A stretch of DNA of 64,000 nt from Ilumatobacteraceae bacterium. Its GTDB lineage: Bacteria > Actinomycetota > Acidimicrobiia > Acidimicrobiales > Ilumatobacteraceae. Below the pieces are notes generated by a model. It saw only the letters and a list, made by a program, of their open reading frames with translations. It was not told the origin of the DNA and searched no databases. Positions 22,925-58,141 of the stretch are shown piece after piece. The translations under genes and the position numbers were made by a program. The stretch's first letter is position 1, and every line of letters begins with the position of its first letter. The DNA lies in contig JAJTEL010000002.1 in assembly GCA_021299715.1 (NCBI GenBank), positions 186,001 to 250,000 of the forward strand. Direction: 5' to 3'.

Positions 22925-24250
22925 TTATTCGCCCAGTGCGGCCTTGATAATTTCCTCGGATTCACGAGCGGCACCCTTGAAAATTCCCTTCGCCATCAGA
23001 GATGACTCGCTCTTGCGTCGTGCTTCATATATTTCTGCACGACCTTTGTGTACGTCGGGATCATCTGGTGCTGCCCATCCTGCAAAGTCGGCAAGGTGGC
23101 ACGCCAAACGCAGATCTCCCGACGCGGCGAGATCTTTCGCACGTGCGATGAGAACTTCTGCGCCACCTGCGAGTCGTGCTACTTCAGACCCAACAGATTC
23201 ATCGGTAGATGGCTTCAAACGTGAGGGAGCGCCGTCCCACCAGCCGCCGAATTGACGCCAAATGTTGCGAACCACAAACTCTGGTTCGTCGTACAACGGA
23301 CGCAAGTACGGCTTACCAAGAGTTGCGTCGGGAATCTTCACACTGTGAATGATGGTGTTGAGGTTTTCTCCCGCATTCATCATCTCAACGGTGGATGACA
23401 CCAAGTACTCCAACGCTGTTGCAATCTCGTCGAGCACTCGTGCAATTCGTTCTTTACCAGCGATGGGTAGACCGTGCGCGGGCAAGAGAAGTTCGGGACC
23501 CTTTGCGATAATGGCGCGCAATGCTTCGGCCCATTCAATTGGCCACCGTTGAACCTTCTGAGGGTTTCCGGCATTAGGGAAGTTCCAAATAACAAAGTCG
23601 CCTGTAGCGACCCATTTCTTGTCAGGGAACCACGACCACAAGTGGTCGTCAGTTTCGCCGCGACCATGGTGGAATTCCACCATGGTGTCACCGAAGGTGA
23701 TGGTGGCAAATCTGTCGACAACGTCTGTTGCGTCCAGAGTGTCTGGAGGAATAAAGGTTGCTTGTCGTTTCGCGCCTGGTGCAGGGCGAAGGTCGTTCAT
23801 TACGCCGTTCAGGTCGCCACGAATTCCGCCGAACTGCCGCGCATTAATCATGCGATTCCAGTCGTCGGTGTAGCGATAGCGGTCGAAGCGGCGCTGAACA
23901 TTCTTGTGCGCTACAACACGCGGTGCTTTGTGTCCACGCGCAACCGCATCGGCAGCAAAGTCAACGCTTCCACCAACGTGATCGGCATGCCCGTGTGTGT
24001 ACACCAATGCTGCAAACGGAGCATCGGTCCATCCGCGAATGGATTCCACCACTTGTTCACCGGTGTTTTTATGGCTGGTGTCGAAACACACCAAGCCGTC
24101 ACCTGAGTTCCATGTGACCACGTGGCTGAATGACTCCACCATGGCGAGGCCATCGGCAATTTCGGACAATTCACCTGTTGTTCTGTTCACAGGTTCGTTC
24201 GCAATGCCAGAATCGACAATGCGCGTGCTGAGACCGATGAGATCTGCCAT
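22925..24250 (-). CDS. MBL-fold hydrolase with alkyl-sulfatase dimerisation domain
   Basis: A 441-residue protein with an N-terminal metallo-beta-lactamase domain carrying the metal motif THGHADH and later His/Glu ligands (DTMVEFHHGRGETDDHLW, and PAHGLP), then an alpha-helical dimerisation domain (LIARAKDLAASGDLRLACHLADFAGWAAPDD and the EIYEARRKSES-type end). This two-domain layout is that of type III (SdsA1-like) secondary alkyl or alkyl sulfatases; the usual C-terminal SCP2 lipid-binding domain is missing. No signal peptide is seen, so it is cytoplasmic. The exact substrate is uncertain. An acyl-CoA dehydrogenase lies upstream on the same strand, so the pair may break down sulfated or fatty substrates. 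Confidence 0.8.
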   Translation of the reverse strand: MADLIGLSTRIVDSGIANEPVNRTTGELSEIADGLAMVESFSHVVTWNSGDGLVCFDTSHKNTGEQVVESIRGWTDAPFAALVYTHGHADHVGGSVDFAADAVARGHKAPRVVAHKNVQRRFDRYRYTDDWNRMINARQFGGIRGDLNGVMNDLRPAPGAKRQATFIPPDTLDATDVVDRFATITFGDTMVEFHHGRGETDDHLWSWFPDKKWVATGDFVIWNFPNAGNPQKVQRWPIEWAEALRAIIAKGPELLLPAHGLPIAGKERIARVLDEIATALEYLVSSTVEMMNAGENLNTIIHSVKIPDATLGKPYLRPLYDEPEFVVRNIWRQFGGWWDGAPSRLKPSTDESVGSEVARLAGGAEVLIARAKDLAASGDLRLACHLADFAGWAAPDDPDVHKGRAEIYEARRKSESSLMAKGIFKGAARESEEIIKAALGE

Positions 24251-24277
24251 GTTGTGCCCCCAAGTTGTTGAGAAGTG

Positions 24278-25378
24278 TTAGCCCTTTGCTAGGCCGAGAA
24301 CTCGTTCGCCGAGAATATTACGCATCACGTTCGATGTGCCGCCCATGATGGTGTAGCCAGGGCCATAGGCGAGTCCTTTGGTCCAGTCGTCCCACAGCAT
24401 TCCTTCTGCGCCTAATTGGCGGTAGACGAACTCGTCGACTTTTTGTTGGTGTTCGGTGCAGAAACACTTTGTTGCGGCAGAGAAACCGGCGGGAGCTTGT
24501 CGGAGCACTTCACGAATCACCAAAATGCGTCCGATGCGGTAGCCCATTTCCAACGACGCAATTTCTTGACGAACATGTGCGCTCTTTGTGTCGGCTTTCG
24601 ACACAGCCAGTTGGAATTGTGCGTAGTTCGACACCAAACGGTCGATACCGCCGCGTTCGTGTTCTAGTTGTCGCATTGTTTGTCCGAACGCACCACCTGG
24701 TTGCCCTACAAGGTTGTCCTTTGGTACTCGCGCATCGGTGAAGAACACTTCGCAGAAGTGACGGTTGGTCGTCATGTCGGTAATTTGGCGAACTTCGATA
24801 CCAGGAGTGTTCATTGGCACGATGATTTCGCTGATTCCAGCGTGTGGCGGACCTTCGTTATTGGTTCTGCAAATGAGATAGCAGTAATCGGCATGCGCAC
24901 CGAAGCTGGTCCAAATCTTTTGACCATTCAAAACCCATTCGTCTCCATCGAGCACGGCAGATGTCTTTAGTGATGCAAGGTCGCTTCCAGAGTTCGGTTC
25001 GCTCATGCCAATGCACCATGTGGTTTCGCCCGCGAGAATGCCTGGCAAGAACTTTTCTTGTTGCTCTTTGGTGCCGTATTGAATTAGTGCCGGTCCCATT
25101 TGTCTGTCGCCGAACCAACTGGCTGCAATGGGCGCACCTGCTTTAATCATTTCTTCGCCAACAATGAGACGGTCAATGGGGGGTCGACCGCCACCGCCGA
25201 ATTCTTTGGGCCACACCATGCCAATCCAGCCACGCTGGGCGAGTTCTTGAGAAAATTCCTTGGAGTAGCCATTCATCCACGTGACGTTGTGTCGGCCGTA
25301 TCGGCGCACCGCGTCTGCAGCCACTTCGGCAGCTTCGCGACGCAACTCAAGCTGTTCGGGGGTCCATGCAAAATCCAT
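24278..25378 (-). CDS. Acyl-CoA dehydrogenase
   Basis: A flavoenzyme that introduces a trans double bond into acyl-CoA (or a related CoA thioester). The 366-residue protein starts [18 protein letters not shown], has the FAD/substrate motif [19 protein letters not shown], the [22 protein letters not shown] segment and the C-terminal helical domain with QLEHERGG and the final [25 protein letters not shown] 25378 is chosen as the family start; ATG 25402 in frame is possible. It is divergent from icd, and the shared gap holds a TACAAGT direct repeat that may control both. It precedes the MBL-fold hydrolase by 27 bases. Confidence 0.9.
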
Positions 25379-27699: not shown

Positions 27700-28968
27700 T
27701 TATCGCTTAGCAATAGGGATGTAGTTGCGCTCGTCGGCGCCGATGTACCACTGACGTGGACGGCTGATCTTTTGTTCGCTGTCGCCCAGAAGTTCTTGCA
27801 TGTGTGCAAGCCAACCGACGGTGCGGGGAATTGCGAACAACACCGTGAACATGTCAACAGGGAATCCGAGGGCCTGATAGATGAGGCCGGAGTAGAAGTC
27901 CACGTTTGGATACAGCTTGCGCTTGATGAAGTACTCATCGTTCAATGCGGCTTTTTCAAGTTCAAGTGCAACGTCGAGAAGTGGGTTCATGCCGGTGACA
28001 GCAAAAACGTCATACGCCGTCTTCTTAATGATGGTGGCGCGTGGATCGAAGTTTTTGTAGACGCGGTGACCGAATCCCATGAGGCGACCTTCGCCAGCCT
28101 TCACACTTTCAATGAATGCGGGGACGTTCTTTACATCTCCAATTTCAGTCAGCATTCGGACAACCGCTTCGTTGGCACCACCGTGCAGTGGGCCATATAG
28201 TGCTGCGGCTGCGGCTGCGGTTGCTGTGTACGGGTCTGAATTGGCGGAACTGACGACACGCATTGCTGTGGTGCCGCAATTTTGCTCGTGGTCGGCATGA
28301 AGAATGAACAAGATGTCCATGGCGCGTGCGAGCGTTGGGTGCACCTTGTAGTCGTCACCGATGCGGAACATCATGTTCAAGAAGTTTTCGCCGTACGAGA
28401 GCGAGTTGTTCGGCATGACGAATGGCAAACCTTGGCTAAAGCGGTAACACATCGCTGCAATGGTGGGAACCTTTGCAACCAGGCGAAGAACTTGCTTGTC
28501 GAAAGTGTCTTTGTCGAAGATGTCTTTTGCCTCTTCGTAGAAAGTTCCAAGAGCCGCTGTTGCGGAGATGAACATTCCCATTGGGTGAGCGTCGTAGTGG
28601 AATCCGTCAACGAAGCGCTTACGCATGTTCTCGTGAATCATGGTGTGGCGTGTGACGTTGTATTCCCACTGGGCCTTCTGGTCTGATGTAGGCAATTCGC
28701 CGTTCAGAAGAAGGTACGCAACTTCCAAGAACGATGAACTCTCGGCGAGCTGTTCAATGGGGTAGCCGCGGTAGCGCAAGACGCCGTTATCACCATCGAG
28801 ATAGGTGATGGCAGACGCACATGATGCGGTGGACAAGTACGCAGGGTCGTACATAAAGAGACTGGGGTCCAGCTCTCGAAGAGCAGCGGAAGAAAAAACT
28901 CCGCCCTCGATAGGCACCGTGACCTTCTTTCCTGTTCGGTCGTCGATGATTGTGATGGTGTCAGCCAT
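27700..28968 (-). CDS. gltA: Citrate synthase
   Basis: Condenses acetyl-CoA and oxaloacetate to citrate. The 422-residue protein is the bacterial citrate synthase class, with a small N-terminal domain (ITIIDDRTGKKVTVPIEGGVFSS), ITYLDGDNGVLRYRGYPIEQLA, LHADHEQNCGTTAMR, the active-site GPLHGGANEAVVRML and GFGHRVYKNFDPRA. ATG 28968 follows AGGAGA at the right spacing; the frame is open upstream, but that part is Arg/Ser-rich and not conserved. The TACAAGT operator found at icd and acn is not visible upstream of this gene, so it may be regulated separately. Confidence 0.96.
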   Translation of the reverse strand: MADTITIIDDRTGKKVTVPIEGGVFSSAALRELDPSLFMYDPAYLSTASCASAITYLDGDNGVLRYRGYPIEQLAESSSFLEVAYLLLNGELPTSDQKAQWEYNVTRHTMIHENMRKRFVDGFHYDAHPMGMFISATAALGTFYEEAKDIFDKDTFDKQVLRLVAKVPTIAAMCYRFSQGLPFVMPNNSLSYGENFLNMMFRIGDDYKVHPTLARAMDILFILHADHEQNCGTTAMRVVSSANSDPYTATAAAAAALYGPLHGGANEAVVRMLTEIGDVKNVPAFIESVKAGEGRLMGFGHRVYKNFDPRATIIKKTAYDVFAVTGMNPLLDVALELEKAALNDEYFIKRKLYPNVDFYSGLIYQALGFPVDMFTVLFAIPRTVGWLAHMQELLGDSEQKISRPRQWYIGADERNYIPIAKR

Positions 28969-29078
28969 GTGGGATCTCCTTGACTGCTGACGGGATACGT
29001 CGCGAGGGCTTTTTTCCCCCACAGTCAGGTTAGACGAACACGGTAGACGGCTCCCACTTTGGTGGGTTGTGAACCCCG

Positions 29079-30452
29079 CTACAAAGGAGTGTTGTCGTGT
29101 TTACGGGACACCAACTTTTCGCGCTTATCACGCAACATGTGAAGCGCTGCACAAATCTCTCGGCGAGTATCTGACGGGTCAATAACGGCGTCTACGTACC
29201 CACGCTCGGCGGCAATGTAGGGGTTCAGCAAACGCTGGGTGTAGTCGGCTTCGAATGCCGCTCGCTCTTCAGGCGTGGCACGACGTTGAAGAATTGCAGC
29301 GGCTTGACCTGCGCCCATGACCGCAAGTTCAGCCCACGGCCAGGCAAGACAGAGGTCGTTCCCCATCTCTTTGGAGTCCATCACGATGTAGGCACCGCCG
29401 TATGACTTGCGCAAGATGATGCAGATGCGGGGAACCGTGGCGCGCGCATAGGCAAAGACAAGTTGTGCACCGTGGCGAATCATTCCGCGCCATTCAAGAT
29501 CTTTGCCGGGGTAGAAGCCCGGCGTGTCAACAAGCGTGATGACAGGAATGTTGAACGCATCGCAGAAAGCCACAAATCGCGCCGCTTTCTGTGATGCAGG
29601 AATGTCGAGTGTGCCAGCCAAGTTGATGGGTTGATTCGCAACAATGCCAATGGGGTATCCGGCCATGTGCGCGAACGCAGTGATGACATTGCCCGCCCAC
29701 CTCGCACGCACTTCCATATATGCGCCATCATCAACAATTGATTCAATAACTTTGCGAACGTCGTAACTTCCGGTTGACGATTCTGGAATAAGTGCACCGG
29801 CTTCTGGTGTGAGCCTGTCGTCAGCGTCGTCGGTGTCAAGAAGCGGTGGTAATTCGTTTACATTGTTCGGCAGATATTCAAGAAGTTCTTCAACCCATGC
29901 AGTTGCCGCAGAGAGATCGGCCACAACAACAGATGCAGCACCACTGTTGCGTGCGTGTGTTGTTGCACCACCAAGTTCGTCGGTGCTTACGGTGATTCCT
30001 GTGAATTCAGCAACCATGGTGGGACCACTAACAAATGCGTAAGAATCTTCGGTCATTACAACAAAGTCGGAAAGCCCAATGAGTAGCGCAGGTCCAGAGA
30101 CAGCAGGGCCAGTCACAATGCTGATGCTGGGAATATGCCCAGAACAATGTGCCAATGCTTTTGCAGCAGTGCCCCAGCCGTGAAGTGCAGGGATTCCTTC
30201 AAGGATGTCTGCTCCGGACGATTCAATTTGCAACACCAGCGGAAGCCCTTTTGTTCGTGCTGTGTCTGCTGCGGTTGCAATGACATGCGACGCAGCAGCA
30301 GAGAGTGCGCCTTTGTGGTGTCCACCATCGACTTCTAGCCAGACAACGAGTCGCCCGGTAGACAATCGCACTACTGCAGCTGTTGCCGCGCCAGGAACAT
30401 TGTGTTGAAGCTCCAGCACCACATCGCGGGGTAGGGAAGGGGCGTCGCTCAC
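29079..30452 (-). CDS. Acyl-CoA carboxylase carboxyltransferase subunit-like protein
   Basis: The 457-residue protein has the two crotonase-fold halves of a biotin-dependent carboxyltransferase (acetyl/propionyl-CoA carboxylase beta type). The C-terminal half is clear: PINLAGTLDIPASQKAARFV, ITLVDTPGFYPGKDLEWRGMIRHGAQLV, RKSYGGAYIVMDSKEMGNDL. The N-terminal half is shorter and more divergent than in the usual 510-540-residue AccD proteins (GPAVSGPALLIGLSDFVVM remains). No biotin carboxylase or biotin carrier gene is adjacent, so the acyl substrate and partner cannot be told. It lies 9 bases downstream of a LysR regulator in the same direction, so they probably form one unit. Confidence 0.82.
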   Translation of the reverse strand: MSDAPSLPRDVVLELQHNVPGAATAAVVRLSTGRLVVWLEVDGGHHKGALSAAASHVIATAADTARTKGLPLVLQIESSGADILEGIPALHGWGTAAKALAHCSGHIPSISIVTGPAVSGPALLIGLSDFVVMTEDSYAFVSGPTMVAEFTGITVSTDELGGATTHARNSGAASVVVADLSAATAWVEELLEYLPNNVNELPPLLDTDDADDRLTPEAGALIPESSTGSYDVRKVIESIVDDGAYMEVRARWAGNVITAFAHMAGYPIGIVANQPINLAGTLDIPASQKAARFVAFCDAFNIPVITLVDTPGFYPGKDLEWRGMIRHGAQLVFAYARATVPRICIILRKSYGGAYIVMDSKEMGNDLCLAWPWAELAVMGAGQAAAILQRRATPEERAAFEADYTQRLLNPYIAAERGYVDAVIDPSDTRREICAALHMLRDKREKLVSRKHDNTPL

Positions 30453-30461
30453 TTCAACAGA

Positions 30462-31415
30462 TTAGACGGAGGGGTGGTGGCGCAGTCCTTTTGACTGATG
30501 TGGCGCGATTTGTACCGATATTCCTGGCTGACGAGGGGCATGGCGGCCCACAACATCAATCGCTCGGTCTCGTACCGCCAATGTGGCTCGGTTTGGTCGA
30601 GGTCGTTCGCGCTGAACCCATCCGACAACTCGCCGTGGCAAGTCGGGAACACTGATGCGCACAAAATTGCCCTTCAGCCAACCAGGTGCGGCGCTGGCGG
30701 GAACAATGGCGGGGCCGAATCCTTCAAACACCAACGACGCCATCAGACGCACACCATCAATTTCCGCTTGCGAGCGCAAGGCCACTCCACGTGTCGCAGC
30801 CGCTCTATCGATAATGCGTCGTTGTGCCGTGCCTCGCGGTGCCAGCAGAAGTGGATACTCGGAAAGTTCTTCAAGCGAGATGGACTTTCGTTCAGCAAGT
30901 ACATGTTTTGTTGGTGCAAGGAGCAATAGTTCTTCGGCAAACAACTCAGTGACATCTAGCGACGGATCTTGAATAGGAAAGTGAACAATTGCCGCATCTA
31001 TTTCGCCGCTTGCAAGACGAAGCAACAACGCGCTGGTGGCACCTTCAATGATTGTTGTGCGCACGCCAGGGTGATGGCGGGTGAGCGAGTTCAGTAGGGG
31101 TGGCATCAGCCACCGCGCGGTGGTACCCAATGTTCCAATTCGACAATCACCGATGGCTTTTTCGCCCAACGAGTGAATGTCGGCGTCTATGTCTTCCATC
31201 TCGTGCAGAATGCGTCGAGCTCTGGTGAGAACCATCTCGCCCTCATCTGTGAGGGTGCCACTTGCCCGGTCAACAAGCACGGTGCCCAACTCTTTTTCGA
31301 GGCGGGCGATGTGGGCCGAGATATTGGACTGCACAGTGTCGAGAGACTTGGCCGCCCCGGAGAACGTGCCGTGCTCAGAGATGGCCACCAGGCTCTGTAA
31401 TTGCTTGATTTCCAT
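30462..31415 (-). CDS. LysR-family transcriptional regulator
   Basis: A 317-residue protein with an N-terminal winged helix-turn-helix (MEIKQLQSLVAISEHGTFSGAAKSLDTVQSNISAHIARLEKELG) and a periplasmic-binding-protein-like effector domain (IGTLGTTARWLMPPLLNSL, GEIDAAIVHFP, EELLLLAPTKHVL). ATG 31415 has GGAGA upstream and is the canonical LysR start. Upstream at 31450-31464 lies a perfect 6-bp palindrome, CGATAG-CAA-CTATCG, a good candidate operator. It probably controls itself and the carboxyltransferase just downstream; the effector is unknown. Confidence 0.9.
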   Translation of the reverse strand: MEIKQLQSLVAISEHGTFSGAAKSLDTVQSNISAHIARLEKELGTVLVDRASGTLTDEGEMVLTRARRILHEMEDIDADIHSLGEKAIGDCRIGTLGTTARWLMPPLLNSLTRHHPGVRTTIIEGATSALLLRLASGEIDAAIVHFPIQDPSLDVTELFAEELLLLAPTKHVLAERKSISLEELSEYPLLLAPRGTAQRRIIDRAAATRGVALRSQAEIDGVRLMASLVFEGFGPAIVPASAAPGWLKGNFVRISVPDLPRRVVGWVQRERPRPNRATLAVRDRAIDVVGRHAPRQPGISVQIAPHQSKGLRHHPSV

Positions 31416-31449
31416 GGATTTCTCCGTCCGTGACACCTATCATAAAAAA

Positions 31450-31464
31450 CGATAGCAACTATCG
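31450..31464. promoter_or_regulatory. Candidate LysR operator (CGATAG-N3-CTATCG)
   Basis: A perfect 6-bp inverted repeat with a 3-base spacer, 34 bases before the LysR start. A further CTATC at 31437-31441 pairs with GATAG at 31451-31455 across nine bases, so three half-sites lie in 28 bases, as often seen at LysR autoregulatory sites. Confidence 0.5.
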
Positions 31465-31521
31465 CCCCGTTCGGCTTGAGTGTTCACTCATTCACGTGCA
31501 TACTTTCACTTACATAAATCG

Positions 31522-31626
31522 CGCCGGCAATGCCCCCCATTGGCCGGCCGAAAGAACCCAACAGATGGTCCCCCCACCATCGGGTTTCGGTTGAGAGGCC
31601 CCGCACCCCCTGCGGGGTCTTTCCCT
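31522..31626 (+). ncRNA. 6C-type small RNA (C-rich hairpin loops, intrinsic terminator)
   Basis: Three hairpins follow each other. Hairpin 1 pairs GCCGGCAATG (31523-31532) with CATTGGCCGGC (31538-31548, one bulged G) around a run of six C (31533-31538). Hairpin 2 pairs ATGGT (31565-31569) with ACCAT (31576-31580) around CCCCCC (31570-31575), inside an outer stem of GAAA (31550-31553) and CCC (31557-31559) with GGG-TTTC (31582-31588). Hairpin 3 pairs CCCCGCA (31599-31605) with TGCGGGG (31611-31617), loop CCCCC, then a T-rich tail, and is a terminator. Two hexa-C loops plus a terminator is the hallmark of the actinobacterial 6C RNA (B11 in mycobacteria), which represses mRNAs through G-rich ribosome sites. 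As in mycobacteria, a HAD-family gene is next to it. Confidence 0.8.
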
Positions 31627-31669
31627 TTTCTGGCAGAACTTGCCTATTTCGCTTGCTCTCAGATGGGCG

Positions 31670-31675
31670 TAGTGT
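31670..31675 (+). promoter_or_regulatory. Leaderless -10 element of the HAD/acyltransferase gene
   Basis: TAGTGT ends 6 bases before GTG 31682, with no ribosome site between. It matches the TANNNT-N6-start pattern at other genes here and lies downstream of the 6C RNA terminator, so the gene can be transcribed independently. Confidence 0.5.
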
Positions 31676-31681
31676 GCGCGC

Positions 31682-33106
31682 GTGAACCACGCTGCGTTTT
31701 TCGACCTTGACCGCACCTTGCTGTCCGGTGCATCTGCACACGTTGTTAGTCGGGTGTTACGTGAAACAGGTGTTGTCACGCGCAACATTCCTGGCGAGTC
31801 ATTGCTGTATCAAGTGTTTGAAACCTTCGGAGAGAATCTCCCATCAATGGTGTTGGGTCGACAGGCCGTTGTTGCAATGCGTGGGCATTTGCAGTCACAT
31901 GTGCGCAACGCTGCAGAGTTGGCTGCTCCAGATTTAGTGAACATGGTGCAGCCGTATGCGCGCAAGGTCATGGATGAACATCGTGCGCAAGGTCGACGTG
32001 TTGTTTTGGCAACAACAACACCGCGGGATCTCATCGAACCTTTTGCCAACCTGATGGGCTTTGATGCTGTCATTGCCACGACGTATGGCGTTGATGACAA
32101 TGGTGCCTACACGGGTGAACTGGTTGGGCCATATGTGTGGTCGCGTGGAAAGAAAGATGCTGTAAAGGCGTGGAGCCGAGAAAATGGCATCGATCTTGAT
32201 GGCTCGTATGCCTATAGCGACAGCGTGTTTGATGAACCACTTCTTGCTGCTGTCGGAAACCCGTATTGCGTTAATCCCGATTGGCGTTTGCGTTTAATGG
32301 CAGCAGCTCGTCGTTGGCCTGTCATGCATTTAGATGTTCCTGCTGGTGTTGCAAAGATTCCTGTTGTTGGTTTAGAAGCACAACAAGCATTAATGAAATT
32401 TGCCCGCCCCGAAGTGTTTCCGTATGCGCGTTTCACAATCACGGGCACGGAGAATATTCCGCGTAACAGCGCCGCAATTTTGTGCGGCAATCACCGCAGT
32501 TACTTCGACATCGCAGCGGTATCTCTTGCGGTTGCAAAGACTGGGCGTGCCGTTCGCTTTCTTGGGAAGAAAGAAGTGTTCGACGCACCTGCCATTGGAC
32601 CAATGGCTACTGCGCTCGGTGGCATTCGTGTAGAGCGCGGAACAGGAAGCGACGAACCGTTGCGTGCAGCAACAGAATCTTTGGAAGCAGGCGACTTGGT
32701 GGCCATCATGCCGCAGGGAACAATTCCACGTGGTCGTGCTTTCTTCGAGCCCGTTTTAAAGGGCCGGTGGGGTGCTGCGCGACTCGCTGCGCAAACGCAA
32801 GCACCAGTGATTCCCATTGGTATTTGGGGCACCGAGAAGGTGTGGCCACGTAACGCAAAATTGCCGAACATCACCAATGTGACATCGCCGCCCGAAATCA
32901 TTATCACCGTCGGCGCACCTGTGACATTGAGATACACCGACCCCGATGCTGACACACGCGCAATCATGGATGCCATTAGTGCGTTACTGCCACCTGAAGC
33001 ACGCGAGTATCGCGAGCCCACCGAAGACGAACTTCGTCGGAGTTATCCGTCGAACTACACAGGTGACCCGAACTCCGAAGACGAACGGCGCCCAGGCACC
33101 GATTAG
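31682..33106 (+). CDS. HAD-IB phosphatase fused to 1-acylglycerol-3-phosphate acyltransferase
   Basis: The 474-residue protein joins two domains. Residues 1-about 215 are a HAD subfamily IB hydrolase (FFDLDRTLLSG at 6-16, catalytic Asp pair; LATTTPRDLIEPFA; DGSYAYSDSVFDEPLL). From about 235 to 440 is a PlsC-like acyltransferase with NHRSYFD (HX4D, from residue 270), FLGKKEVFDAPAIGPMA, GGIRVERG and MPQGT in place of the usual FPEGT. Such fusions are known in actinobacteria and are presumed to act in phospholipid synthesis, removing phosphate and acylating at the membrane. The start is GTG 31682. It converges with acn with no spacer. The phosphatase substrate is unknown. Confidence 0.87.
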   Translation: MNHAAFFDLDRTLLSGASAHVVSRVLRETGVVTRNIPGESLLYQVFETFGENLPSMVLGRQAVVAMRGHLQSHVRNAAELAAPDLVNMVQPYARKVMDEHRAQGRRVVLATTTPRDLIEPFANLMGFDAVIATTYGVDDNGAYTGELVGPYVWSRGKKDAVKAWSRENGIDLDGSYAYSDSVFDEPLLAAVGNPYCVNPDWRLRLMAAARRWPVMHLDVPAGVAKIPVVGLEAQQALMKFARPEVFPYARFTITGTENIPRNSAAILCGNHRSYFDIAAVSLAVAKTGRAVRFLGKKEVFDAPAIGPMATALGGIRVERGTGSDEPLRAATESLEAGDLVAIMPQGTIPRGRAFFEPVLKGRWGAARLAAQTQAPVIPIGIWGTEKVWPRNAKLPNITNVTSPPEIIITVGAPVTLRYTDPDADTRAIMDAISALLPPEAREYREPTEDELRRSYPSNYTGDPNSEDERRPGTD

Positions 33107-35374
33107 TTATTTGGCGTTTGCCACCTTTTGGCGAACGATGTTCAATGCGCTTCCAGCCTTGAACCATTCCACTTGCTCTGGACTAAACGTGTGCTTTGCC
33201 TCGAAGTCAATGGTGCTTCCATCGGCTTTTGTGATGCGGCACTTCATTGGCTGGTCGGGTACTGGTGGAAGATTCAGCACGCTGATCTTGTCGGTTTCCT
33301 CGATGAGGTCGTAGGTGCTTGGATCGGCAAATGTCAAAGGAACAAGCCCCTGCTTCTTCAAGTTTGTTTCGTGAATACGCGCAAACGAACGAGCGAAAAT
33401 AACAACGCCACCACGGAATCGTGGCTCCATTGCGGCGTGCTCACGTGATGAACCTTCGCCGTAGTTCTGGTCACCAATTGCACACCAGCGAATGCCTGCT
33501 TCGCTGTACCGCTTTGCAATGTCTGGATAACTGCGACGACCACCATCAGTGATGTCGAGACCTTCGCCGACGGCGCCACCAAATGCGTTGACAGCACCGA
33601 TGAACAAGTTGCCAGAGATGTTCTCGAGGTGGCCGCGATAGGTGAGCCACTTGCCTGCAGCAGAAATGTGGTCGGTGGTGCACTTGCCTTGAGCTTTCAT
33701 GAGGATAGGAAGTTCCAAGTAGTCGTTTCCGTCCCATGCGTTGAACGGCTGCAACAGTTGCAAACGATCTGACGTTGGGCTGACTTCAACAACCACGCCA
33801 CTTCCGTCTGCAGGTGGCGCAGTGAATGTGTCTACGCCCGGGTCGTATCCGTTGTCGGGAAGAATGTCGCCCTGTGGTGCATCGAGTTTCACTTGCGAAC
33901 CGTCGGGAGCGGTAATGGTGTCGACCATTGGGTCGAAATCGAGACGGCCAGATAATGCAATAGCCATCACGGTGTCGGGGCTAGTGACAAACGACAGTGT
34001 GTTTGCTGAACCGTCGGCACGCTTTGGGAAGTTGCGGTTGAACGAGTTCACAATGCTGTTGGGCTTTGCTGTTTTGTCTGCAGCACGTTCCCACTGACCA
34101 ATGCAGGGTCCGCATGCATTGGCAAGAACAGTTGCGCCGATTGCTTCAAGGTCTGCAAGAAGGCCATCGCGTTCGATGGTGGCACGAATTTGCTCACTTC
34201 CTGGTGAGATGAGAAGTTCAGTCTTAGCCTTCAGTCCCTTTGCTGCTGCCTGACGAGCAATTGACGCTGCACGTGTGATGTCTTCGTACGAGGAGTTGGT
34301 GCACGAACCAATGAGAGCAGCGGACACTTCAAGTGGCCAGTCGTTCTCACGAGCCGCAGCACCCACGCCGTTTGCACCAATTTTGTGTGCGCGGTCCGGC
34401 GAGTGTGGTCCATTGATGAGGGGAGTGAGTTTCGACAAATCAATTTCAATGACTTGGTCGTACTGTGCTCCGTCGTCGGGGCGAAGTTCTGCCGCAACTT
34501 TGTCGGCTGCTGCAGCAATTGCTTGGCGGCCTGTTGCGCTGAGGTATTCGCTCATGTTCTTGTCGTAACCAAACACCGAACACGTTGCGCCAATTTCGGC
34601 ACCCATGTTGCAAATGGTTGCTTTGCCTGTTGCAGAAATTGTGTCGGCACCTGGTCCGAAGTATTCGGCAATTGCACCGGTGCCACCTTCAACGGTGAGT
34701 TGACGTGCAACTTCAAGAATGACGTCTTTTGGACTTGCCCAACCACTGAGTGTTCCGGTGAGTTTGATGCCGATGACTTTTGGCCACCGAACGTTGAACG
34801 GGAATCCGGTCATGACGTCTACTGCGTCCGCACCACCAACACCAATGGCCACCATTCCGAGTCCACCTGCGTTTGGTGTGTGGCTGTCGGTACCAATCAT
34901 CATTCCGCCAGGGAATGCATAGTTTTCAAGAACTACTTGGTGAATGATTCCGCTACCCGGTCCCCAGAAACCAACGCCGTATTTGGCACTTACTGAACGC
35001 AAGAAGTCATACACCTCACGGTTGGTGTCGTTCGCGTCGCGCAAGTCCAACTTGGCGCCTACCTTCGCAAGGATGAGGTGGTCACAGTGAACAGTGGAGG
35101 GAACTGCCGTTGTGGGCAGACCTGCCGTCATGAATTGCAGCAACGCCATCTGGGCCGTTGCGTCTTGCATGGCCACACGGTCGGGGTTGAAGTCTGCATA
35201 ACTGCGACCGCGTTCCATTTCCTGGGTCTTTGGATCGACCAAGTGATTGATGAGAATCTTCTCGGCCAGTGTGAGGGGGCGACCAAGGCGCTCGCGACCA
35301 AGGTGTGCATTCGCTACGAGGCGTGAATACACGCCTTCAACAAGTTCGATGGGGGTTCCGGCAGTCACGGCCAT
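33107..35374 (-). CDS. acn: Aconitate hydratase, mitochondrial-like type
   Basis: Interconverts citrate and isocitrate in the TCA cycle through a [4Fe-4S] cluster. The 755-residue protein carries the cluster cysteines ([12 protein letters not shown] and [11 protein letters not shown]), [25 protein letters not shown], and the C-terminal swivel domain with [18 protein letters not shown]. Length and sequence fit the mitochondrial/eukaryote-like aconitases rather than the roughly 900-residue AcnA common in actinobacteria. ATG 35374 follows GGAAAGG; upstream in-frame codons reach the GntR operator and are unlikely. It is divergent from gntR with the operator between them. Confidence 0.95.
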
Positions 35375-35426
35375 GGGGGCAACCTTTCCTTCAGCAAGCA
35401 ATGGACTTGCTTTTTCTCTCTGTGTA

Positions 35427-35444
35427 TACAACTCTAATACAAGT
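35427..35444 (+). promoter_or_regulatory. Candidate GntR operator between acn and gntR
   Basis: TACAACT (35427-35433) and TACAAGT (35438-35444) form a direct repeat with the same 11-bp period as the pair upstream of icd, and the flanking TGTGTA is also shared. The second half-site overlaps the gntR start codon, which suggests autorepression. Confidence 0.55.
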
Positions 35445-57223: not shown

Positions 57224-58141
57224 ATGACCAATCGTTCACATATTTCTGTTGAACCTGCAACTTCACCACAGTGGGTGATTGATGCTGTCGTTGCTGGTGG
57301 TGGAACAGTTGTTGATTCATCGAATGCAAGTGCTGCGGTGTGGACGGCCGCAAAAGATGCAGACGGTTTGCAGTCGCTCATCAATCAGAATGACCATCTC
57401 GATTGGGTGCAGGTTCCATTTGCGGGTATCGAAAATTTTCTGCCCGTTATCGACAACGACAGAGTCTGGACGTGTGGCAAAGGTGTGTATGCCGAACCAG
57501 TCGCAGAACATGCGCTTGCGTTGGCACTTGCCGGCCTTCGCAATGTGGCGAACTATGGCCGCCAGACAGAGTGGACAGGGCCAGTGGGGCGCAACTTGTT
57601 GCACGCTGCGGTCACAATTGTTGGCGGTGGTGGAATCACCGAATCTCTCATTCGTTTGCTCGCGCCTTTCCAGTGCAATATCACGGTGGTGCGCCGAAGT
57701 GTTGAACACATTGAGGGTGCGGACACTGTTGTGGGAACTGATGATTTGGTGAACGCGTTGGTGGGGGCCGATGTTGTGTTTCTTGCTCTTTCCCTCACTC
57801 CGGAGACGCGCGGACTTATTGGGCGACCAGAGTTTGAGGTAATGGAAAATCACGCGTGGATTGTGAATGTTGCCCGTGGCGGGCACATAGTGACCGATGA
57901 CTTGGTGTGGGCCCTGCAGAACAATGAAATTGGTGGGGCCGCACTAGATGTCACCGATCCTGAGCCACTTCCCGCTGGGCACCCTCTATGGAGTCTTTCG
58001 AATTGCATTATCACCCCCCATATCGGCAACACTCCTGAGATGGCTATTCCTTTGTTGTCCGAACGAATCACGGAGAACGTAAAGCGATACATCGCAGGCG
58101 AGCCTCTTATCGGCCTTGTTGATGTTCGTCATGGCTACTAA
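57224..58141 (+). CDS. D-isomer-specific 2-hydroxyacid dehydrogenase family protein
   Basis: A 305-residue NAD-dependent dehydrogenase. The nucleotide loop reads IVGGGGITESLIRLL, and the catalytic Arg (NVARGGHIV), Glu (LDVTDPEPLPAGHPLW) and His (IITPHIGNTPEM) are all present. The substrate (a 2-hydroxy or 2-keto acid) is unknown. It starts 3 bases after potC, so its expression is probably tied to amine uptake, though a chemical link is not evident. The stop overlaps the start region of the J-domain gene by 11 bases. Confidence 0.87.
   Translation: MTNRSHISVEPATSPQWVIDAVVAGGGTVVDSSNASAAVWTAAKDADGLQSLINQNDHLDWVQVPFAGIENFLPVIDNDRVWTCGKGVYAEPVAEHALALALAGLRNVANYGRQTEWTGPVGRNLLHAAVTIVGGGGITESLIRLLAPFQCNITVVRRSVEHIEGADTVVGTDDLVNALVGADVVFLALSLTPETRGLIGRPEFEVMENHAWIVNVARGGHIVTDDLVWALQNNEIGGAALDVTDPEPLPAGHPLWSLSNCIITPHIGNTPEMAIPLLSERITENVKRYIAGEPLIGLVDVRHGY

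Follow-up and report, generated by a model that had tools for sequence, protein, structure and literature searches.

A conserved C-loop RNA gene divergent from a LysR-type regulator gene in Ilumatobacteraceae

Genes and hairpins of the locus

The stretch of DNA analysed here (64,000 nucleotides, hereafter the window) belongs to a 1.9-Mb Ilumatobacteraceae genome in 16 contigs. Between a lysR gene and a gene for a HAD-PlsC fusion, neighbours that an earlier sequence-only reading had named correctly, the plus strand carries three hairpins in series (H1, H2 and H3; Table 1), with runs of six C in H1 and H2 and of five C in H3. In the minimum-energy fold of H1 the sixth C pairs with G31532, leaving five C unpaired, while H3 combines 13 stacked pairs with a T-rich tail and is terminator-like in a terminator scan. 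The folding energies of 31500-31640 (z = -4.67) and of 31511-31630 (z = -6.24) were each more favourable than those of all 200 shuffles, and the three hairpin loops with at least five C compare with a mean of 0.28 in dinucleotide shuffles, none of 500 giving three. Coordinates, folding scores and shuffles thus agree with the previous description of three consecutive hairpins with C-rich loops ending in a terminator, and the proposal of a small RNA with C-rich loops and a terminator of its own is supported.

The conserved -10 box suggests that the 5' end of the RNA lies nearer 31511 than 31522. A consensus promoter scan of 31200-31900 reported no promoter, the proposed one included. For lysR, the ATG at 31415 appears to be the more likely start. 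The inverted repeat between the two genes is unique in the window as an exact copy, and when one mismatch is allowed the pattern is not enriched there (10 vs 6.1 expected). Elsewhere in the window, two more hairpins have loops containing five or six C, at 221 on the plus strand and near 25183 on the minus strand, with 10 and 9 pairs, respectively, when G-T is counted.

The closest LysR proteins in named records come from metagenome-assembled genomes, several of them from lakes, and the host is accordingly taken to be a freshwater bacterium; three records (L144, L146 and L151; LysR identity 76-78%) are titled Bifidobacterium breve, and these titles look wrong. Encoded in a run with carboxyltransferase and citrate synthase genes and not far from aconitase (27700-35431), the LysR protein of the window may sense a central-carbon metabolite.

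Table 1. Positions of the RNA, its elements, the surrounding genes and one predicted target site in the window
Feature	Positions	Strand	Remark
GGGGG at the ribosome site of the MBL-fold gene (22925-24250), a predicted target	24257..24261	-	kept in 9/16 genus homologues
Citrate synthase	27700..29022	-	beyond carboxyltransferase
Carboxyltransferase (Carboxyl_trans), behind lysR	29079..30452	-	in 18/18 family loci
lysR, divergent from the RNA (Pfam HTH_1 and LysR_substrate)	30462..31436	-	beside the RNA in 18/18 family loci
Inverted repeat GATAGCAACTATC, proposed LysR-binding site	31451..31463	.	sole exact GATAN5TATC in the window
-35-like TTGAGT	31476..31481	+	TTG here in 18/18 family loci
-10-like CATACT	31499..31504	+	CATACT, CATAAT or CACACT in 18/18 family loci
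Small RNA, ~118 nt	31511..31628	+	5' boundary predicted by the -10 box, 3' boundary by the terminator
Hairpin H1, C run 31533-31538	31519..31551	+	fold; arm-swap test
Hairpin H2, C run 31570-31575	31554..31587	+	fold; arm-swap test
Hairpin H3, intrinsic terminator, core 31593-31623, C run 31606-31610	31589..31625	+	terminator scan
HAD-PlsC fusion (HAD-acyltransferase; Pfam and TIGR01490)	31682..33106	+	frequent but dispensable neighbour
Aconitase	33107..35431	-	after HAD-PlsC

Conservation of the RNA and of its neighbours

A DNA similarity search recovered the element in 21 of 25 genomes of the genus (E < 1e-9) and in none of 16 other genomes of the order. R1, a covariance model made from 26 sequences and run over 247 genomes of the class, matched 18 of the 19 listed family genomes (E <= 5.3e-4), G487 being the sole miss; two of the 19 (G000 and G032) had been part of its training set, and 16 of the other 17 matched. 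The window RNA, itself a training sequence, scored 118.7 bits, and the RNA of G021, overlooked by the DNA search, was recovered. Outside the family R1 gave weak matches only (best E 8.8e-4), and among those listed the folds show a strong terminator hairpin without C5 loops.

The second hairpin was misaligned in the alignment fitted to R1 (A2), which was therefore not used for pair counts, and a model from A3 was dropped for the same reason. Instead we used an arm-swap test, in which the binding energy of the 15 nt on either side of a C run is compared between native arms and arms swapped between species. The family set held 25 loci (26 chosen, with near-duplicates and L106 omitted, less L105, where only one C run precedes the terminator). 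Native arms bound at -16.3 kcal/mol in H1 and -12.4 kcal/mol in H2, against -7.7 and -7.1 kcal/mol when swapped, and no permutation among 5000 matched the native value for either hairpin; these loci hold 23 distinct 5' arms for H1 and 22 for H2. Much the same was seen in other families, where 32 runs of at least five C from 12 loci (L127 and L133 omitted) gave -18.5 native and -9.6 swapped, with 0 of 5000 as good. As the permutations ignore relatedness, the size of these effects weighs more than the permutation counts. Across 42 loci, C runs of at least five occur in H1 in 40 (four C in L023 and L096), in H2 in 40 (L105 and L106 lack one altogether) and in H3 in 24, a near-constancy in the first two hairpins and variability in the last that designates H1 and H2 as the constant seeds and the terminator loop as optional. 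In H3, the sequence GGTTGAGA...TCCC is almost invariant.

Since the stems vary between species yet remain complementary, the RNA is real and structured: the computation shows that 31511-31628 is a conserved structured RNA whose loops are retained while its stems change. A plain terminator or palindromic element with C loops arising by chance would account for H3, a strong terminator-like hairpin, but is very improbable given that two further hairpins keep their C loops while the stems change complementarily and that the promoter and the spacing of the repeat are conserved.

In all 18 family loci a divergent lysR gene is present with the carboxyltransferase gene beyond it. GAT[AG]-N5-TATC lies upstream in 17 of them (the copy in L093 has one base changed), and from its centre to the -10 box there are 42-43 nt in all 18, the imperfect copy included. 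A set of 29 loci upstream of HAD-PlsC comprises the genus plus L025, L026, L028 and L030, and omits L015 and L023 because of contig ends, L027, in which HAD does not adjoin the RNA, and L050, a duplicate. Some genomes carry two locus names across our sets (L028/L030 are L138/L139, and L026/L001 are L101/L091). Repeat and lysR are both present in 27 of the 29 and both absent from L021 and L022, where lysR is gone and the carboxyltransferase gene adjoins the region; these two loci (in G006 and G030) represent a sub-lineage that retains the RNA.

For the order, the region upstream of HAD-PlsC was read, and its folds inspected, in 19 genomes of 19 other families, the 19 being those of 24 sampled genomes in which HAD-PlsC was matched over its full length (in L122 a contig end truncates the locus). 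A divergent lysR was found in 14 of the 19, and in 13 of these one to three hairpins with C5-C8 loops lie between lysR and the next gene; among the five loci without lysR, one of them cut by a contig end, such hairpins occur in L133 only. An exact repeat was seen in 11 of 14 order loci, L125 and L128 having lysR without an exact copy and L133 having neither, and L130 has lysR with neither RNA nor a copy of the repeat. The sRNA gene divergent from a LysR gene is therefore conserved as a unit (18 of 18 loci in the family, and 13 of the 14 in the order where lysR is divergent), and the exceptions are L021, L022, L133 and L130. The first three of these have the RNA without lysR, which means that lysR is not strictly needed. 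From linkage and repeat spacing, the predicted partner of the RNA is the divergent lysR gene. On the co-occurrence of lysR with the repeat and on the habits of LysR proteins, we infer that the repeat is a LysR site and LysR an activator.

The other neighbour, HAD-PlsC, starts on the same strand about 54 nt after the end of the RNA in the window and follows the RNA in 11 of 18 family loci, as would be expected if the RNA were a cis leader or attenuator of this gene. Such a role is nevertheless quite improbable, as no HAD-PlsC match adjoins the RNA in the remaining seven loci (which extend 1.5 kb past it, with aconitase as the next tested gene in six) and no full-length HAD-PlsC is present in the available genome sequence of G036, G021 and G031. 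In L140, moreover, about 2 kb separates lysR from HAD-PlsC, and it is lysR that the C-loop hairpins adjoin, and in the window a TAnnnT motif stands just before the HAD-PlsC start codon, as in leaderless genes. HAD-PlsC was rejected as the partner gene of the RNA owing to the seven family loci without it, to L140, and to the HAD genes beside 6C RNAs, which resemble another paralogue (see below).

Candidate targets and proposed mode of action

Duplex energies with the RNA loops were ranked over 52 ORFs of the window, where the two local targets suggested by the sequence-only reading, potA and the MBL-fold gene, came third and fourth. We discarded potA, the site of which is GGAGG in close relatives and not a G run, and kept the MBL-fold gene, which is alkyl-sulfatase-like and has some support. 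From 27 MBL loci (18 readable, one cut by a contig end, eight with a start that could not be projected), GGGGG is retained in nine of the 16 readable genus homologues with diverged flanks; among the other seven, which have no G run, one has GGAAG and six look leaderless. Both readable loci outside the genus (L201 and L203) are without G5. Of 47 window genes with syntenic orthologues, no other than the MBL gene has G5 in at least two of five genomes; the MBL gene has it in four.

Among the places examined, which omit window position 58019 on the minus strand, the pattern G6-N3-9-ATG starting an ORF of at least 60 aa was found nine times in the host genome and 12 times in G002. Two such sites are common to both genomes, one before a cytochrome P450 gene (PDB match, E 1.7e-31) and one before a dipeptide-type permease gene. 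Counting the query and homologues at 60% identity or more, a run of at least five G is kept in 10 of 12 for the permease and in seven of nine for the P450, both with diverged flanks, and in six of nine for a dipeptide-binding protein, the other three having G4 and the flanks differing. Below 60% identity the counts are 0/21 for the P450, 1/8 for the permease and 6/14 for the binding protein (L401 unreadable). The segment G000:C10:347437-361955 holds dipeptide-binding-protein paralogues and a permease, and GGGGGG precedes the starts of the permease and of the binding protein at 350937.

Genome-wide, GGGGGG before RTG showed no excess over the reversed pattern (66 vs 73). Counts of G6-N3-9-ATG in five genomes (23, 19, 23, 72 and 12) exceed those of the reversed pattern (7, 8, 4, 10 and 8), a control unmatched for ATG frequency; as it ends in GTA and not ATG, this excess is not used as evidence. 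The target genes were not picked blind (two are those common to two genomes, one was chosen after the gene class had been seen, and one had been named before), and the list is thus suggestive, not proven. Within these bounds, the kept ribosome sites with at least five G are suggestive of the dipeptide permease, the binding protein, the P450 and the MBL gene as targets of the RNA, and the conservation of G runs may simply reflect Shine-Dalgarno function.

We consider it probable that 31511-31628 encodes a trans-acting, 6C-like sRNA, the C loops of which would pair with G-run ribosome sites and block translation, and that the divergent LysR controls this RNA, most likely by activating its transcription. 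LysR would act when bound at the repeat, centred about 54 nt before the predicted start, and the C-run loops would form duplexes with the G runs of ribosome-binding sites, blocking translation. The multiple loops would serve as redundant seeds, and the third hairpin would also terminate transcription. We take as candidate targets the binding protein and the permease of a dipeptide ABC transporter, the cytochrome P450 and the MBL-fold gene at 24250; genes, perhaps including those for peptide uptake, would most likely be switched off by the RNA. Expression, LysR binding, the direction of control, pairing and repression are all things we infer from the sequence and its relatives. The role in pairing with G-rich ribosome sites that had been suggested earlier is probable, judging by the G-run sites retained in orthologues.

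Protein-sequestering RNAs are built from repeated identical loop motifs, and the C loops could likewise belong to a decoy that binds a protein rather than mRNA. We regard such a decoy as improbable, since the G-run ribosome sites retained in orthologues favour pairing, as does the precedent of B11 in the available text of two reports (PMC12395582, PMC10470900).

Relation to 6C and to other anti-ribosome-site RNAs

When the whole window was compared with Rfam, two tRNAs alone reached the cut-offs. The 6C model (RF01066), to which the RNA had been assigned in the sequence-only reading, gave 30.6 bits against a gathering cut-off of 47, with model positions 1-75 (two C-run-loop hairpins, then CCCUU) aligned to H2 and H3, and the assignment is not supported at that threshold. 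The alpha-r14 model (RF02344) extended over all three hairpins at 25.5 bits against a cut-off of 58.8; these two were the strongest local hits below threshold. The search of 61 genus, family and order genomes gave no RF01066 match at E <= 0.001, and that of the loci of 20 relatives none at E <= 5. Of 246 in a phylum sample, 41 match at E <= 1 (the window RNA among them), 10 of which pass the cut-off. The cut-off alone is not decisive, as Corynebacterium glutamicum, a carrier of an accepted 6C RNA according to the available text of PMC4046766, also stayed below it as a control.

The placement beside a HAD gene had been suggested as possibly conserved between this locus and 6C loci, which is not supported. 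Among the other 29 RF01066 loci fetched, 14 have a HAD match, every one head to head with the 6C RNA, whereas HAD-PlsC lies downstream on the same strand; a LysR match was found in none of the 29. All 14 HAD proteins are closer to another HAD paralogue of the host genome (134-148 bits) than to HAD-PlsC (102-130 bits), no run of five C occurs in the 260 nt before the paralogous HAD gene of the host genome, and seven of the 18 family loci, as described above, are without an adjoining HAD-PlsC. Nor is the view of the C-rich terminator loop as an unusual elaboration supported: the second hairpin of the 6C model has a C-rich loop too, and the C-rich terminator loop is the seed in Mycobacterium marinum B11 in the available part of PMC12395582. 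Relative to the 6C model it is the 5' hairpin H1 that is extra, and of the three loops that of the terminator is here the least constant. Among the RF01066 loci, L069 (G145:C1:2161221-2161295; 46.2 bits, just below the cut-off) has three consecutive C-loop hairpins in its fold, which places a three-loop form in a different family of the phylum.

The main rival to our reading is an ordinary 6C RNA that has diverged below the Rfam cut-off, which we hold to be unlikely but well worth weighing. The window RNA is the sole RF01066 match of its host genome at E <= 1, the model aligns over H2 and H3 with the same CCCUU end, the accepted 6C carrier C. glutamicum is likewise under the cut-off, the three-C-loop RNA of L069 comes close to it, and R1 rates L068 and L069 (23.3 and 21.0 bits) about equal to the best of the order-level RNAs (23.2, 21.0 and 19.6 bits for L129, L138 and L121; none for most others). 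Against this stand the score of 30.6 bits vs 47, the lack of an RF01066 match in the 20 relatives' loci, the ceiling of 23.3 bits for R1 on 14 RF01066 loci, and neighbours of another kind, with LysR at 0 of 29 loci and the 14 HAD genes head to head and of another paralogue. Given the cut-off, the relatives and the gene neighbourhood, we did not file the RNA as 6C.

As R1 rates order-level RNAs and RF01066 loci alike, the grouping of the RNAs across the order rests on lysR, the repeat and the layout and not on the model. On that footing we tentatively, and with some doubt, put forward an order-wide actinobacterial module of LysR and C-loop sRNA, separate in origin from the 6C, Rhizobiales and enterobacterial systems and of the same design, in which a LysR whose gene neighbours those for citrate synthase, carboxylase and aconitase would drive a multi-loop RNA (one to three C loops, depending on the family) that silences peptide uptake and peripheral catabolism via G-run ribosome sites.

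The sRNA would be ordinary in kind, and what appears new is its control and distribution. Among the matches listed from the open PubMed Central literature, none concerned a LysR-linked C-loop RNA or 6C-like RNAs of Acidimicrobiia, and none reporting regulatory small RNAs of Acidimicrobiales was seen there (subscription papers being mostly outside it). The Acidimicrobiales, which include many lake bacteria known from metagenomes, thereby gain a candidate global sRNA that escapes the Rfam 6C model at its cut-off and is tied to a regulator and a DNA site. With targets listed that have kept their pairing sites, both halves of the circuit become testable. If the proposal is true, it would suggest more than one evolutionary origin for LysR-controlled sRNAs with repeated anti-ribosome-site loops.

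Three known systems resemble parts of this arrangement. With 6C/B11 of Actinomycetota (RF01066) the window RNA shares C-run loops (including the terminator loop), a similar size, CCCUU after the last stem and the presumed targeting of G-rich ribosome sites; it differs in having, compared with the model, one more C-loop hairpin at the 5' end, in its score below the cut-off, in its other stems, and in its position divergent from lysR, where 6C is head to head with HAD in 14 of 29 other loci (a tendency, not a rule) and beside LysR in none. In mycobacteria, the C loops of B11 repress mRNAs by pairing with G tracts near ribosome sites (available text of PMC10470900 and PMC12395582), and in M. abscessus either loop suffices (PMC10470900, likewise in part). 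With the alpha-r14/NfeR1 'cuckoo' RNAs of Rhizobiales (RF02344) it has in common three hairpins, each with an anti-ribosome-site loop. NfeR1 of Sinorhizobium meliloti, a three-hairpin anti-SD sRNA, is activated by the LysR-type protein LsrB in the available text of PMC10746234, and for the window RNA the divergent lysR, with the repeat at its constant distance, would be the putative counterpart. The Rhizobiales RNAs belong to another phylum, carry the loop motif CCUCCUCCC instead of C runs, and their model gives 25.5 bits vs 58.8. GcvB/GcvA of Enterobacteria shares the pairing of a LysR-type regulator with an sRNA, gcvB being divergent from gcvA. GcvB uses Hfq, and it differs from the window RNA in this use as well as in fold and seed; no sequence relation is claimed. 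In the part of PMC3658693 available, GcvB represses dppA and oppA, i.e., dipeptide and oligopeptide binding proteins, and the predicted sites of at least five G for the window RNA lie at a permease and a binding protein. Judged by analogy, the window RNA would thus unite 6C-like loops, an NfeR1-like three-hairpin layout and a LysR pairing like that of GcvA and GcvB.
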